A stretch of DNA of 44,785 bases, from positions 1 through 44,785 of the forward strand of contig JAFWVX010000032.1 of assembly GCA_017523785.1 (NCBI GenBank), written 5' to 3'. Shown here one piece after another: positions 3,571-31,422 of the stretch. The notes under the pieces are model-generated. The model searched no databases. It saw only the letters and a list, made by a program, of their open reading frames with translations, and had not been told where the DNA came from. The DNA is from Lachnospiraceae bacterium (GTDB lineage: Bacteria > Bacillota > Clostridia > Lachnospirales > Lachnospiraceae). How positions within the stretch are numbered: the stretch's first letter is position 1; each line of letters opens with the position of its first letter. Position numbers and translations under genes: made by a program.

Positions 3571-4494
3571 ATGAGAAAAAAAATAATACTTTCCACAGTT
3601 GTTATGATTTTGATGAGCATCATTTTCGCTGGTGCTGTATTTGCTGATTGGCAAAGAGAAGACAATGGTAAATATAAATATTTTAATTCTGCGGCAGGTC
3701 AATATGTAATCAATAATTGGTTGCAGACTGGCAACGGATTTTACTATTTTGATGCTAACGGATATACCGTAGTTGGTTGGTATCTTATAAATGGAAAGTA
3801 TTATTATTTTGACGCGAACGGATTGATGCAAGTTGGCTTCATTGAGTTCAACGGCAACAAATATTATTTGAATCCAAACAACGGTCAGATGGTCACTGGC
3901 TGGATTCAGACCTACACCGACGGTGTGCTCGACTACTACTATTTTGCCGACAACGGTGTCATGCTTACTGGTTGGAACAAAATTGGAAACGCCTGGTTCT
4001 ATTTCTACGACGGAAAATGTCTCGTCAATACATTTGCAGCTGTAAATGGCATCTGGTATCACTTCGGAGTAAATGGTGCGATGGACACTGGCTGGGTAAA
4101 TGCAAATGGAAAAATGTTTTACTTTAATGCAAGTAACGGCTCACTCACCAAGGGATGGATACAAGACCAGAATGGAAATGAATACTATCTCTCTGAAGTT
4201 GATGGAAGTCTCGCTATAAACACAACTTTACAAATCGGAGGAACTTATTACACTTTTGACTCGCAGGGAAAATGCATCGGCAAAGACCAATACACTTTTG
4301 TCGGAGATGCAAATGGCAATTCAAGTTACTACACTGATGGTGTTCTCGGCAACAAGGGAACAGAGGTGGTTTATGGTGTAAATGTCGGTGTCTCACCTGG
4401 CATAGGAGTGGGAGTCGGCGGAACTACAAGTTTCCAATACGAGCAAGAGCAGAAGCAGCCACTTCAGGCGGGTTCAACAGCCGGACCGAAATAA
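3571..4494 (+). CDS. Secreted cell-wall-binding repeat protein 1
   Basis: 307 residues with a signal peptide (basic MRKK, hydrophobic core, cleavage likely after AVFA). The rest is a run of roughly ten cell-wall-binding (choline-binding type, CW_binding_1 family) repeats with the pattern GW...G..YYF...G.M, for example GWYLINGKYYYFDANGLMQ. It ends in a Gly/Val-rich tail and a short hydrophilic end. It has no catalytic domain, so it is probably a structural or adhesive wall protein held by aromatic cages on phosphocholine. It lies in the operon of the choline kinase fusion, which fits that ligand. The Shine-Dalgarno AGGAG is well placed. The mnmA start codon follows after a single base. Confidence 0.87.
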   Translation: MRKKIILSTVVMILMSIIFAGAVFADWQREDNGKYKYFNSAAGQYVINNWLQTGNGFYYFDANGYTVVGWYLINGKYYYFDANGLMQVGFIEFNGNKYYLNPNNGQMVTGWIQTYTDGVLDYYYFADNGVMLTGWNKIGNAWFYFYDGKCLVNTFAAVNGIWYHFGVNGAMDTGWVNANGKMFYFNASNGSLTKGWIQDQNGNEYYLSEVDGSLAINTTLQIGGTYYTFDSQGKCIGKDQYTFVGDANGNSSYYTDGVLGNKGTEVVYGVNVGVSPGIGVGVGGTTSFQYEQEQKQPLQAGSTAGPK

Positions 4495-4495
4495 T

Positions 4496-5752
4496 ATGAG
4501 AGTATTAGTTGCGATGTCGGGCGGAGTTGACTCAACAGTAACCGCCTATCTATTAAAAAAAGCAGGATACGAAGTTGTCGGTGTAAATTTTAATTTCACA
4601 AAATTATGCGAGCCCGAGTTAGAAGAGATTGCCGAGAAGTTAAATATAAAAATTATTTATAAGGATTTCGCTCACGAGTTCCGAGATAAAATTATCAACT
4701 ATTTTGTGACAGAATACGAGCACGGCAGAACCCCAAATCCCTGTGCCCTATGTAATCCAACAATGAAGTTCGCTAAACTTATAGAAGTAATGAAAGAAGA
4801 GAACTGCGACATGATAGCGACAGGACATTATGCTAATGTAGGGGCGAGCGACGGAGAGGACGCGGCAAGTCAAGCAACTGTAGGGGCGAGCACTGCGAAC
4901 CCAGTTCGCTATTACATACGAAAAAGTAGCAACCAACAAAAGGACCAGTCGTATATGCTCTATCGCCTTACTCAAGAGCAGTTGTCTCATATAATATTTC
5001 CACTCGGTGATATGGACAAAAATGATGTTAGAAAGATTGCAGCAGAACTTGGACTAAAAGTAGCAGAGAAAAAAGATTCGCAGGATGTATGTTTTATTCC
5101 AAACTCTTCTGGGGAGAGTCAAGCATCTGTAGGTATGAGTCAAACTTCTGTAGGGGCGAATTCAATTTCTGTAGGGGCGAGCATTGCGAGCCCGTTGGAT
5201 TATAAAGAATATATCAAGCGTTACGAATTCGGTCAAGACTACCGAGAAAAAATCGCTCGAGGCCTTTTAAAGGAAGAAGAGATTTTGGCTAAGCCATATT
5301 TTAAGAAGGGCGAGTTCGTAGATTTAGATGGAAAAGTTCTGGGTTATCATAATGGCATCATTAATTATACAATCGGCCAGCGAAAGGGACTCAATATTGC
5401 CTTTGGGGAGAGAAAGTTTGTAGTTAGAATTGATGCAGAAAAGAATCAGGTTGTTCTTGGAAGTAATGATGATTTGATGGCAACAGAATTTAGGATGAAG
5501 GATGTTGTCTTTAGTGGGCACGATGAAAATATAATAGGAACAAAGTTTTATGCAAAATTGAGATATCGCCACGATGGCACACTTTGCGAAATCACCGAGG
5601 CTTCGCCAACTTGTAGGAGCGAGCATTGCGAACCCGAAAGTATGATATACACTTGCCACTTACTAGAGCCAGTTCGAGCAATAACACCAGGGCAGTCGGC
5701 GGTTTTTTATGACGAGGAAGGGCGAGTGATGTTTGGGGGGATCATTATATAA
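4496..5752 (+). CDS. mnmA: tRNA 2-thiouridylase MnmA with REP-encoded insertions
   Basis: This enzyme puts sulfur on U34 of Lys, Glu and Gln tRNAs. Visible hallmarks are the PP-loop SGGVDS (residues 8-13), the catalytic cysteine C86 in NPCALCN, the second catalytic cysteine C199 in SQDVCFI, and GQRKGL and TPGQSAVFY in the C-terminal part. At 418 residues it is about 50 longer than the usual ~370. Much of the excess is peptide read from GTAG palindromes at residues ~115-136 (VGAS...VGASTANP), 212-233 (three 7-residue units ending VGASIASP) and 373-380 (CRSEHCEP). By comparison with E. coli MnmA from memory, sites 1 and 3 fall in beta-hairpin turns and site 2 just after the C199 loop, so the fold may tolerate them. 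Another ~25 residues around EFGQDYREKIARG also look extra. All catalytic residues are kept. The start is 1 base after the repeat protein stop, without a clear Shine-Dalgarno site. Confidence 0.93.
   Translation: MRVLVAMSGGVDSTVTAYLLKKAGYEVVGVNFNFTKLCEPELEEIAEKLNIKIIYKDFAHEFRDKIINYFVTEYEHGRTPNPCALCNPTMKFAKLIEVMKEENCDMIATGHYANVGASDGEDAASQATVGASTANPVRYYIRKSSNQQKDQSYMLYRLTQEQLSHIIFPLGDMDKNDVRKIAAELGLKVAEKKDSQDVCFIPNSSGESQASVGMSQTSVGANSISVGASIASPLDYKEYIKRYEFGQDYREKIARGLLKEEEILAKPYFKKGEFVDLDGKVLGYHNGIINYTIGQRKGLNIAFGERKFVVRIDAEKNQVVLGSNDDLMATEFRMKDVVFSGHDENIIGTKFYAKLRYRHDGTLCEITEASPTCRSEHCEPESMIYTCHLLEPVRAITPGQSAVFYDEEGRVMFGGIII
4838..4903 (+). repeat. GTAG REP-like palindromes inside mnmA, site 1
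   Basis: A degenerate copy begins GTAGGGGCGAGC at 4838 and a full copy runs 4880-4903, ending GCGAACCC. Both are read in the frame that gives VGAS. The sequence before the second copy (AGTCAAGCAACT) resembles that before the first unit of site 2, so the two insertions share more than the palindrome core. Confidence 0.8.
5129..5194 (+). repeat. 21-bp array ending in a full REP inside mnmA, site 2
   Basis: GTAGG occurs at 5129, 5150 and 5171, exactly 21 bases apart, giving the 7-residue units SVGMSQT, SVGANSI and SVGASIA. The last unit is a complete palindrome (5171-5194) ending GAGCCCG. The spacing in whole codons keeps the mnmA frame. Confidence 0.8.
5613..5636 (+). repeat. GTAG REP-like palindrome inside mnmA, site 3
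   Basis: GTAGGAGCGAGC at 5613 with the matching arm GCGAACCCG. It is read one frame off from sites 1 and 2, giving CRSEHCEP. It lies in the C-terminal beta-barrel region of MnmA. Confidence 0.78.
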
Positions 5753-23483: not shown

Positions 23484-23563
23484 CGTAGGGGACGACATTC
23501 TGTCGCCTCGTAGGGGCGAATGCTTGCAGACCCCACACCGTAGGGGCGAGCACTGCGAGCCCG
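23484..23563 (+). repeat. Three REP palindromes in a row, three subtypes
   Basis: Copy 1 (23484-23508) is GTAGGGGACGACATTCTGTC type. Copy 2 (23510-23534) is GTAGGGGCGAATGCTTGCAG type. Copy 3 (23540-23563) is the common GTAGGGGCGAGCACTGCGAG type. All have GTAG at the left. They fill the gap between ruvB and the U32 gene. Confidence 0.85.
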
Positions 23564-23574
23564 AATAGAATAGA

Positions 23575-24633
23575 ATGAATAAGCATACAGATAAATTAGA
23601 ATTATTATCACCGGCAGGTAGTTTTGAATGTGCCAAAGCAGCCATTGACGCAGGTGCAGATGCCATATATATGGGCGGTGCAAAGTTTAGTGCAAGAGCA
23701 TTTGCAAAATCAGCTGAAGAAAATAGTATAATAGATGCAATCAAATTAGCCAAGTCAAATGGCAAAAGATTTTATCTTACAATAAATACTCTCTTTAAGC
23801 AACGAGAGCTTAAAGAGATTTTTTTGTTTTTAGATTCTATTGTATGTGCTGGGATTGATGCATTTATCGTGCAGGACTTGGGTGTCGCAATGCTTTTAAA
23901 AAATAAGTATCCTAAAGTTGAACTTCATGCATCAACTCAGATGACCATCACATCTAGTAAAGCAATAAATCTAGTCAAGTCACTCGGTTTTACTCAAGTT
24001 GTTCTTGCAAGAGAGTTAAGCATAAAAGAAATAAAGGCTATAAAAAAAGAAGTTGGAAACGATATAAAGCTTGAGACATTCATTCACGGATCCATGTGTT
24101 ATTGTTATAGTTGTGCTTGTCTTATGTCTAGCTTTATAGGTGGAGAGTCAGGAAATCGTGGTCGCTGTAAAGGGCCTTGTCGCCTACCATATAGCATAGC
24201 TTCTCGGTCGGACAAAATGGTAGATCCTACATCACACACAAAACATTGTAGGGGACGACATTCTGTCGTCCCTCGTGCAGGAGATTTTCAAGAGCCTGCA
24301 CCATACATTTTATCGATGAAAGATATGTGTGCCATCAATTCTCTATCAGGACTAGTTAATGCAGGTATTACATCATTTAAAATAGAAGGCCGAATGAGAC
24401 AAGCCGACTATGTCTATGGCACAACCAAAACATATCGAAAATACCTAGATGAAATAATTCTCTCAAAAAACTGCGAGCCCAATGAAACTCGTAGGGGCGA
24501 GTTACGCGAGCCCGACATCAAAAAGGACGAAAAGTATTTATTAGAACTCTACAACAAAGGCGGCTTCACCAACTACTACGACAAACATAATGGCACTACA
24601 ATGATACAACGATATGAAAGAAATAAGAAGTGA
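23575..24633 (+). CDS. U32 peptidase-family protein, N-terminal piece, with REP-encoded segments
   Basis: 352 residues. LELLSPAGSFECAKAAIDAGADAIYMGG, the HASTQMTITSS strand and the cysteine-rich HGSMCYCYSCACLMSS, then GNRGRCKGPCRLPY, are the hallmark of the U32 (YhbU/RlhA/TrhP-like) family, whose best-known members act in rRNA or tRNA hydroxylation with an iron-sulfur site. The domain runs through KIEGRMRQADYV and stops at MIQRYERNKK, where longer homologues continue for several hundred residues. Two palindromes are translated: residues 225-234 (CRGRHSVVPR) and 306-313 (RRGELREP). A truncated REP end (CTGCGAGCCC, 24471-24480) gives NCEP just before the second. The first falls between RLPYSI and the conserved YILSMKDM segment. 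There is no good Shine-Dalgarno site. The matching C-terminal piece lies at 27222. Confidence 0.85.
   Translation: MNKHTDKLELLSPAGSFECAKAAIDAGADAIYMGGAKFSARAFAKSAEENSIIDAIKLAKSNGKRFYLTINTLFKQRELKEIFLFLDSIVCAGIDAFIVQDLGVAMLLKNKYPKVELHASTQMTITSSKAINLVKSLGFTQVVLARELSIKEIKAIKKEVGNDIKLETFIHGSMCYCYSCACLMSSFIGGESGNRGRCKGPCRLPYSIASRSDKMVDPTSHTKHCRGRHSVVPRAGDFQEPAPYILSMKDMCAINSLSGLVNAGITSFKIEGRMRQADYVYGTTKTYRKYLDEIILSKNCEPNETRRGELREPDIKKDEKYLLELYNKGGFTNYYDKHNGTTMIQRYERNKK
24248..24273 (+). repeat. REP palindrome (ACGACATTCTGTCGT subtype) inside the U32 N-piece
   Basis: GTAGGGGACGACA pairs with TGTCGTCCC around a TTC loop. It is read as (C)RGRHSVVP. It is the same subtype as the copy at 23484, 760 bases upstream. 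Confidence 0.85.
24471..24514 (+). repeat. Truncated plus full REP inside the U32 N-piece
   Basis: A REP right end (CTGCGAGCCC, 24471-24480) is followed by a full copy at 24491-24514 (GTAGGGGCGAGT...GAGCCCG). It is read as RRGELREP. Confidence 0.8.
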
Positions 24634-27221: not shown

Positions 27222-28202
27222 ATGTATAAAGTTAAAGTAGAAAATTTGAAACAATTTGAAATTGCACTTGCATCTAAGAATGTGAGTGAGATTATTTTGG
27301 CGAGAGATAGTTTTGTTGAAAAAGATTTGCCTAAGTTGGTAGAAGGGATAAAAAAATCAAATAAAGTTGCTTGGATCTTAATGGAACGAATTTCTAGATA
27401 CGAAGAAAATATGAAACCGCATGACTTAAGGCTTGCCACTGATAAAATTTATGAAATTAACAATCTTGGTGGAGTAATAATTCAAAATCTTGACTCATTT
27501 GCATATATGCTTCGTAAGATTAACAAAGCCGCAAATGAAAAACTAAAAGTCGAATTAAACTATACCATGAACTGTTATAACAATGAGACAAAGAAAGTCC
27601 ATCAAAATTTGTATAATGAGAAAAGAAAAAATGCAAATGAAGTGCCCCTACTTTTCACAGCACCAGTTGAATTAAACATTTATGAATTGTCAGAAGTTGG
27701 ATACGATACATTTATTGTCTATAGTTATATTGATACAATGGTTTCTGCCAATTGCCTAAGAAAAAATCTCGTAGGGGCAGATGCCACACAAATGTACCAC
27801 AGCGGCGAAGCTTGCGAGACCGCAAAACCTTGTAGGGGCGAGCACTGCGAGCCCGCATGCAAATATAGATTCAACTTCGAAAATGTCCACGACTTTTCCT
27901 CTTATATAATAGACAGAAAAGGCAAGAAGCTCTACTACAAAACTTACTGCAAATATTGCTACAACAAAATATTCAACACCGAGCCACTATACTTACTCGA
28001 CAAAATTGATGAACTAAAGTTTAGGGAACCCTTAGCCCGTAGGAGCCAGTTATATGAGCCCGTGACCCGTAGGGGCGAGCACTGCGAGCCCGCATACCGA
28101 ATAGACTTCAGCTTCGAAACTGAAAATGAAGTCCGCAACATTTTAAATAAAAAAATCCCCGAGAGTTTTACTCGGGGACACATAAAGAACTCGATTAAAT
28201 AA
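27222..28202 (+). CDS. U32-family C-terminal piece with REP-encoded segments
   Basis: 326 residues. It matches the C-terminal part of long U32-family proteins: KVEN(L)KQFEIAL, FTAPVELNIYELSEVGYDTFIVYSYIDTMVS, and the cysteine cluster DRKGKKLYYKTYCKYCYNKIFN followed by PLYLLDKI and RIDFSFETENEV. The middle (DUF3656-type) part of such proteins is not found in either piece. Four palindromes are translated: VGADA at residues 184-188, CRGEHCEP at 204-211, RRSQLYEP at 273-280 and RRGEHCEP at 283-290. They lie between conserved blocks. The start at 27222 has only a weak ribosome binding site. The last codons overlap the terminator of the convergent gene. Whether the two U32 pieces still work together is unknown. 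Confidence 0.75.
   Translation: MYKVKVENLKQFEIALASKNVSEIILARDSFVEKDLPKLVEGIKKSNKVAWILMERISRYEENMKPHDLRLATDKIYEINNLGGVIIQNLDSFAYMLRKINKAANEKLKVELNYTMNCYNNETKKVHQNLYNEKRKNANEVPLLFTAPVELNIYELSEVGYDTFIVYSYIDTMVSANCLRKNLVGADATQMYHSGEACETAKPCRGEHCEPACKYRFNFENVHDFSSYIIDRKGKKLYYKTYCKYCYNKIFNTEPLYLLDKIDELKFREPLARRSQLYEPVTRRGEHCEPAYRIDFSFETENEVRNILNKKIPESFTRGHIKNSIK
27771..27855 (+). repeat. REP cluster inside the U32 C-piece, first site
   Basis: A short GTAGGGGCAGATGCC begins at 27771. A decayed GGCGAAGCTTGCGAGACCG lies at 27804-27822, and a complete copy at 27832-27855. The first is read as VGADA, the last as CRGEHCEP, so both open frames are used within one gene. Confidence 0.82.
28039..28092 (+). 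repeat. Two REP copies inside the U32 C-piece, second site
   Basis: A diverged copy (28039-28062, GTAGGAGCCAG...GAGCCCG) and a consensus copy (28069-28092) are 30 bases apart, so both stay in the RR..EP frame. Confidence 0.82.
28150..28177 (-). terminator. Terminator of the yihY-like gene, inside the convergent U32 C-piece
   Basis: On the minus strand CCCCGAG and CTCGGGG form a 7-bp stem with a 7-base loop, followed by ATTTTTTT. It lies 26 bases beyond the stop of the minus-strand gene and within the last 18 codons of the plus-strand gene. On the plus strand no U tract follows the stem. Confidence 0.82.
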
Positions 28203-30843: not shown

Positions 30844-30868
30844 CGTAGGGGCGGATATCATCCGCCCG
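30844..30868 (+). repeat. Left REP of the RAYT locus
   Basis: GTAGGGGCGGAT followed by ATCATCCGCCCG: the arms CGGGCGGAT and its complement pair almost perfectly, with GTAG at the outer end. Confidence 0.88.
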
Positions 30869-30878
30869 CTAATATATT

Positions 30879-31397
30879 ATGAATCTACCAACAAGAAAAA
30901 AGTTAAGAATTAAAGATTATAATTATAAAAGTGAAAATATTTATTTCATTACAATATGTTCAAAAAATCAAGAGTGTATTTTTTGTAATATTGATGAAGA
31001 GATTGATAGTGTTGGTTTTGATACAATTAATTTTAATAAATATATACATTACTCAAATATCGGATCTATAATTGTTGAATCTTTAAAGAATATTGAGACA
31101 ATATATAATGGTGTTGTTTTAAAGGAATATGTTATTATGCCTAATCATTTGCATATGCTAATTGAGATTACTGATGATATAAGTAAAAATCAGAATAGCA
31201 TTGACATTTTTAAAATAGTAGGTAGTTTTAAGAGATATGTGACAAAAATGGTTAATAAAGGTAAAAAAAATAAAATGGAAGTATGGCAAAAATCTTTTTA
31301 TGAGCATATTGTGAGAGATGAAAAAGATTATAATAGGATATTAGAGTATATGGTTTATAATCCATTTAAGTGGAAATTGGATGAATACTATAGGTAA
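30879..31397 (+). CDS. REP-associated tyrosine transposase (Y1_Tnp / RAYT)
   Basis: 172 residues, typical of the Y1 transposase (IS200-like HUH) superfamily. The HUH motif is VIMPNHLHMLIEI. The catalytic tyrosine is in WQKSFYEHIVRDEKDYNRI, and the family end LEYMVYNPFKWKLDEYY is intact. Early motifs (NIYFITICSKNQE) are also present. RAYTs are single-copy relatives of IS200 transposases that bind and cleave GTAG-headed palindromes in single-stranded DNA. They are thought to spread them while rarely moving themselves. The protein looks complete and active. It is probably the source of the palindromes found all over this window. There is no Shine-Dalgarno site between the REP and the ATG, suggesting low expression. 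Confidence 0.93.
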   Translation: MNLPTRKKLRIKDYNYKSENIYFITICSKNQECIFCNIDEEIDSVGFDTINFNKYIHYSNIGSIIVESLKNIETIYNGVVLKEYVIMPNHLHMLIEITDDISKNQNSIDIFKIVGSFKRYVTKMVNKGKKNKMEVWQKSFYEHIVRDEKDYNRILEYMVYNPFKWKLDEYYR

Positions 31398-31422
31398 CGG
31401 GCGGATGGTATCCGCCCCTACG
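31398..31422 (-). repeat. Right REP of the RAYT locus, inverted
   Basis: CGGGCGGAT, a short centre, then ATCCGCCCCTACG. It reads GTAGGGGCGGAT on the minus strand. It is the only clear minus-orientation copy in the window. Confidence 0.88.

Follow-up and report, generated by a model that had tools for sequence, protein, structure and literature searches.

GTAG-tagged REP palindromes lie in frame within mnmA and other genes of a rumen Lachnospiraceae genus

The window analyzed here is a 44,785-nucleotide stretch of Lachnospiraceae DNA (JAFWVX010000032.1), contig 10 of a 1.22-Mb draft genome that is 56% complete and that we label G000. It carries mnmA (4496..5752, forward strand), which encodes a tRNA 2-thiouridine(34) synthase of 418 aa and hosts several short palindromes tagged with GTAG, i.e., repetitive extragenic palindromic (REP) elements. 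The 418-codon frame is unbroken, Pfam finds the MnmA domains in the product, and the NCBIfam MnmA model NF001138 scores 339 bits against a cut-off of 284. The product retains the SGGVDS PP-loop and the two catalytic cysteines, C86 and C199, both invariant in a six-sequence MnmA alignment. An earlier interpretation made from the letters of the DNA (the sequence-only reading) had described the gene as intact with both cysteines kept, and these results bear it out. It had also put the product about 50 residues beyond the normal length. The extra length is real, but the REP-free orthologue of a related genome, G006, has 376 aa, and by that yardstick the excess is therefore about 42 residues rather than 50. 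The gene for a choline-binding-repeat protein (3571-4494) stops a single base short of the start codon of mnmA.

The palindromes in mnmA belong to a family, here called A, with the 23-nt consensus YGTAGGGGCGAGCAYTGCGAGCCC. As a single strand this consensus folds at -8.7 kcal/mol, with the GTAG unpaired and with GGGC/GCCC and GC/GC stems around a GA/GA internal loop; in mnmA, folding is weaker at site 1 (-4.1 kcal/mol) and site 3 (-2.2 kcal/mol). Three sites are occupied, all on the forward strand. Site 1 holds the 5′ half-unit GTAGGGGCGAGC, without the 3′ arm (4838..4849), and a full copy in phase 0 that would be translated as VGASTANP (4880..4902). At site 2, two 21-nt half-units beginning at 5129 and 5150 (5129..5170) are followed by a full phase 0 copy (5171..5193; VGASIASP), and site 3 holds a copy in phase 1 (5613..5635; CRSEHCEP). 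The sequence-only reading had counted six in-frame palindromes; those at 4880, 5171, and 5613 are full, but those at 4838, 5129, and 5150 are 5′ parts lacking the 3′ arm. Half-units precede the next GTAG unit by exactly 21 nt, both in the window (5129, 5150) and elsewhere in G000 (C21:2118, 3922, and 4039; C2:6912; C25:18070), and this spacing occurs in eight successive GTAGGGG pairs. In the predicted MnmA fold, confidence is low only in the three inserted stretches. Strands 114-117 and 139-142 of this predicted fold flank site 1, and strands 362-371 and 383-394 flank site 3; site 2 follows the catalytic C199.

The MnmA core is under purifying selection: of 15 pairs listed (28 overall), five have unsaturated dS, and their dN/dS is 0.055-0.100. 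With the inserts in place, MnmA most probably remains active as a tRNA thiolase. The gene could instead be a spare or decaying copy, with another MnmA doing the work and the inserts merely awaiting removal. A second MnmA does occur in three genomes of the genus (G004, G005, G008), and the second-type copies that were checked contain no REP. However, these second copies and the MnmA of G010 are nearly identical across four otherwise distant species (loci L054 in G004, L221 in G005, L222 in G008, and L055 in G010) and look like a recent transfer or contamination. In the MnmA tree, the sister sequences of G003, G008, and G004 join the REP-bearing clade. Given the near-identity of the second type across species, the REP-bearing mnmA is most likely the resident enzyme of the genus. 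No second MnmA was found in G000, G001, G002, G003, G006, G007, or G011 (56-87% complete) beyond short N-terminal PP-loop matches. A pseudogene or spare paralogue was rejected as the main explanation because the core is under purifying selection, the catalytic residues are kept, and the tree makes the second copy the newcomer; we regard it as highly unlikely.

The sequence-only reading depended on the palindromes recurring elsewhere in the genome, and they do. The window contains 13 matches to TGTAGGGGCGAGC with up to two mismatches, compared with a mean of 0.17 in shuffled versions, and the whole genome contains 93 family-A copies at up to two mismatches, with none in the reversed control. 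A count with another pattern and threshold gave 78 copies, again with none in the reversed control. Codon-shuffled copies of 15 MnmA genes likewise gave no matches, and on these three controls a chance origin was rejected. At up to two mismatches, family A is present in 11 of the 12 genomes of the genus, at 0 to 149 copies per genome, and in 0 of 28 genomes from other genera of the family and order. Stretches chosen around GTAGGGGCG and family A also contain related palindromes: 34 of family B, 32 of C, 14 of E, and 19 of F. The family-A elements are short imperfect palindromes with a terminal, unpaired GTAG and are dispersed in many copies, which are features of GTAG-type REPs. The nearest MnmA sequences among named relatives come from the metagenome-assembled genomes Lachnospiraceae bacterium RGIG3219 (goat reticulum) and uncultured Clostridiales bacterium RUG816, and for this reason we refer to the group as a genus of rumen Lachnospiraceae.

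MnmA is only one of many hosts in G000, and REP insertion as an MnmA-specific trait was rejected. The 283,804 bp of stretches around matches hold 101 family-A copies at up to three substitutions, 89 of them at up to two (compared with 93 genome-wide). Forty-six fall inside 30 open reading frames (ORFs) of at least 150 aa. Frames antisense to REP arrays remain open, and counting ORFs therefore inflates the number of genic copies (in the genome G003, 48 of 75 lie in small opposite-strand ORFs); for this reason we kept Pfam-supported genes alone. This left out five copies that lie close to an ORF start or upstream of the domain, ten in ORFs without a Pfam family, and two in an unscanned ORF running off its contig. 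The remaining 29 of 101 copies lie within 19 genes. These encode MnmA, RsmA, QueA, RecG, RuvX, a SpoU-type methylase, threonine synthase, a thiamine pyrophosphate enzyme, a class-V aminotransferase, NAD(P)H-hydrate dehydratase, an epimerase, a glycosyltransferase, a histidyl-tRNA-synthetase-like protein, a MiaB-like and two other radical S-adenosylmethionine proteins, a nitrogenase-like protein, a histidine kinase, and a DUF285 protein. On the coding strand there are 25 copies, 14 in phase 0 (VGASTASP) and 11 in phase 1 (xRGEHCEP); four are on the opposite strand. None of the 25 is in the phase that reads TAG, which is partly a matter of detection because such an insertion would end the ORF. 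Among called ORFs of at least 100 aa, 40 of 99 copies are genic, compared with the fraction of 0.89 of the sequence that such ORFs cover. Thus, genes are avoided about twofold as REP sites but are not excluded.

The sequence-only reading would have been undermined by close relatives with the same MnmA residues encoded by unrelated nucleotides. REP DNA lies inside the gene in seven of the eight close MnmA orthologues examined; the eighth, that of G006, has none. Seventeen coding-strand REPs from several families, in two reading phases, fall at four MnmA positions, namely 36, 117, 188, and 331/332 in the numbering of G006. At position 117, family A occurs in phase 0 in G000 and G009 and in phase 1 in G007, and G005 has family F in phase 0; position 331/332 is occupied by family A in phase 1 (G000) and family B in phase 0 (G001). 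Since families and phases differ at one position, some loops have been struck repeatedly, unless indels shifted the phase. If insertions were placed uniformly, four or fewer clusters would arise from nine or seven independent insertions (the number being an estimate) with a chance of 0.003 or 0.03. The same pattern is found in other enzymes. One loop of RsmA carries families C and A in G000, A and F in G005, and B in G006, with no REP in G001, G002, or G007. One loop of QueA carries B and A in G000 and a degenerate A with two F copies in G005, whereas the remaining seven aligned sequences are REP-free at this loop. Three of these seven (G006, G007, and G002 or, in part, G001) have extra non-REP residues or short turns at that place.

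Such recurrence is also what would be expected if the inserts were functional, i.e., if the loops had been recruited, for instance to adjust how tRNA or rRNA is handled, and were kept by selection. Several of the hosts act on RNA (MnmA, RsmA, QueA, the SpoU-type methylase, and the MiaB-like protein), and the same loops are occupied in several species. However, the family, phase, and length of the inserted residues vary by species, the MnmA of G006 is REP-free, and many hosts are unrelated metabolic enzymes. We consider a recruited function to be quite unlikely.

A candidate agent of REP mobility is encoded in the window itself. A probable REP-associated tyrosine transposase (RAYT) of the HUH type (172 aa; 30879..31397, forward strand) has a family-B REP upstream (30845..30867, forward strand) and an inverted family-B REP just past its stop codon (31399..31421, reverse strand). 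The protein scores 27.3 bits with Y1_Tnp (cut-off 23) and 78.4 bits with NF047646, just under the cut-off of 80, and it contains PNHLHM, which we take to be an HUH-like motif. A second RAYT, on contig 11 of G000, has an E-type palindrome behind it. These two genes adjoin B- and E-type repeats, and we found no family-A copy beside either. Family-A REPs do flank RAYTs in G003, where the frame is intact, and in G009, with copies before the gene and inverted ones behind; a RAYT gene bordered by its own repeat family is a further feature of GTAG-type REPs. Relatives by NF047646 occur in 10 of the 12 genomes, all under the curated cut-off; a longer type was observed in G002, G006, and G007.

The arrangement of the repeats has a preferred order. 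Among close neighbors of all families (gap of up to 120 nt), 58 of 81 pairs are direct and 23 inverted, and direct pairs with A downstream of C or B number 27, compared with seven in which A precedes B or C. Family-A pairs within 150 nt are direct in nine cases and inverted in one. In G000, 25 of 99 family-A copies are followed within 45 nt by a Shine-Dalgarno-like motif and ATG, compared with 4 of 99 that have these on the other side, and a leader role is possible. The REPs could have spread by recombination, gene conversion between copies, or slippage, with the RAYTs taking no present part. Half-units and direct arrays suggest slippage, and G005 holds 25 REPs with no RAYT match. On the other hand, RAYTs are found in most genomes of the genus, several of them between inverted REPs, and G004 has neither REPs nor a RAYT match. 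We consider spread without the transposase to be unlikely.

The probable explanation is that GTAG REPs of this rumen Lachnospiraceae genus are mobilized by RAYTs and tolerated in frame within protein loops. RAYT-type HUH tyrosine transposases would spread the GTAG-tagged repeats within a genome, and these would land within genes as well as between them. An insertion would survive where the frame is kept, the TAG of the GTAG goes unread, and the loop tolerates a VGASTASP or xRGEHCEP peptide, whose presence would be neutral. New REPs would tend to settle near existing ones, with family A usually immediately 3′ of a copy of B or C, and we propose that the same few loops therefore fill in different species. 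The copies may later decay into ordinary loop sequence. Several observations weigh against this explanation. Degenerate copies occur at a fifth MnmA loop in G002 (on the other strand) and G011, and with this loop included, five or fewer clusters from an estimated ten or eight insertions have a chance of 0.011 or 0.08. The coding-strand bias of genic copies (25:4) is not significantly higher than that of intergenic ones (30:11; p 0.24). In G009, the RAYT flanked by family A has a frame of only 79 aa, the RAYT of G008 has a stop, and the REPs of G005 are without a RAYT match, as already described. The REP-richest genome, G003, keeps nearly all of its REPs in tandem arrays; among 75 distinct copies in 30 loci, four are genic on the coding strand, and three of these four are near an ORF start. 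The translated habit is thus no simple result of REP number. All of the genomes compared are drafts.

We more tentatively propose, as a possibility that we do not favor outright, that REPs make their own landing pads. A loop with one REP hairpin would receive later families, B or C first and A after, and transposase activity would lengthen and renew the loops of housekeeping enzymes, giving a standing source of new protein sequence. The extra non-REP residues found at these loops in sister species would then be decayed remains. A dozen related genomes allow gain, stacking, and decay to be read for each loop. They make it possible to test the old idea that selfish palindromes give rise to protein sequence, through the loops that accept them, the order of insertion, and the retention of enzyme function. 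Recurrent in-frame REPs at tolerant spots, read as extra protein loops, would show how selfish DNA turns into new protein sequence.

Other parts of the window contain further copies. A U32-peptidase/TrhP-like gene (23575-24633) has an intergenic family-A REP 12 bp before its ORF (23540..23562, forward strand) and a family-C REP inside it (24248..24272, forward strand), in phase 1 as CRGRHSVVP. The same gene has an A-like unit at 24491, read as RRGELREP. The ORF at 27222-28202 (326 aa), which has no Pfam or NCBIfam match, carries two forward-strand family-A copies in phase 1 (27832..27854 and 28069..28091). A long ORF running off the contig end (38733-44785) contains two F-like REPs 45 nt apart, which would be translated as VGASSTSPEEEPKDD repeats in an acidic stretch. 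Elsewhere in the genus, loci L191-L220 of G003 consist of long family-A tandem arrays whose open antisense frames mimic ORFs of 107-132 aa.

The sequence-only reading is supported overall and is here widened beyond MnmA. It had held that mobile palindromes turned into protein sequence inside a housekeeping enzyme are rarely described in bacteria. The kind is already in print, and the host, loop recurrence, and stacking are unreported in the literature searched. GTAG REPs wholly inside ORFs of known proteins have been described, most of them in Opitutus terrae, with tRNA enzymes among the hosts and some ORFs struck twice, and it was proposed there that loops tolerate such insertions (Di Nocera et al., 2013; PMC3733652). 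Those elements share with ours the GTAG tag on a short imperfect palindrome and copies inside ORFs. The host here is a member of the Lachnospiraceae, whereas no Firmicutes are named in the main text of that paper (its supplementary gene list aside), and our search of the openly licensed literature, which did not extend to that list, found no Lachnospiraceae or Firmicutes case. Unlike the elements described there, the REPs studied here re-use the same loops with different families and phases across species; neither this re-use nor directional stacking was found in the literature searched. GTAG REPs prefer gene 3′ ends in the species analyzed in that paper, whereas family A is often directly before a start codon.

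Pseudomonas REPINs likewise have a RAYT with adjoining REPs and within-genome families (PMC3116915). As that source describes it, the REPIN unit is an inverted REP doublet in extragenic space; here the pairs are mostly direct and many copies are genic, and REPIN membership was rejected on the pair orientations given above. The classic case of in-frame palindromes in many unrelated, apparently functional genes is that of the Rickettsia palindromic elements (RPEs; Ogata et al., 2000, 2002, as cited in later papers). According to PMC3733652, RPE-4 and RPE-6 are tagged with CGTC, some RPEs measure about 150 bp, and no dedicated transposase is known for CGTC repeats. The elements studied here carry GTAG, which by the tag criterion of that paper excludes them from the RPEs, and they are 23 nt long. 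Thus, translated REPs are a known kind, and the Lachnospiraceae host, same-loop recurrence, and directional stacking are new to the literature searched. In-frame palindromes are best known from Rickettsia; in this genus, they are REPs with RAYT genes beside them.
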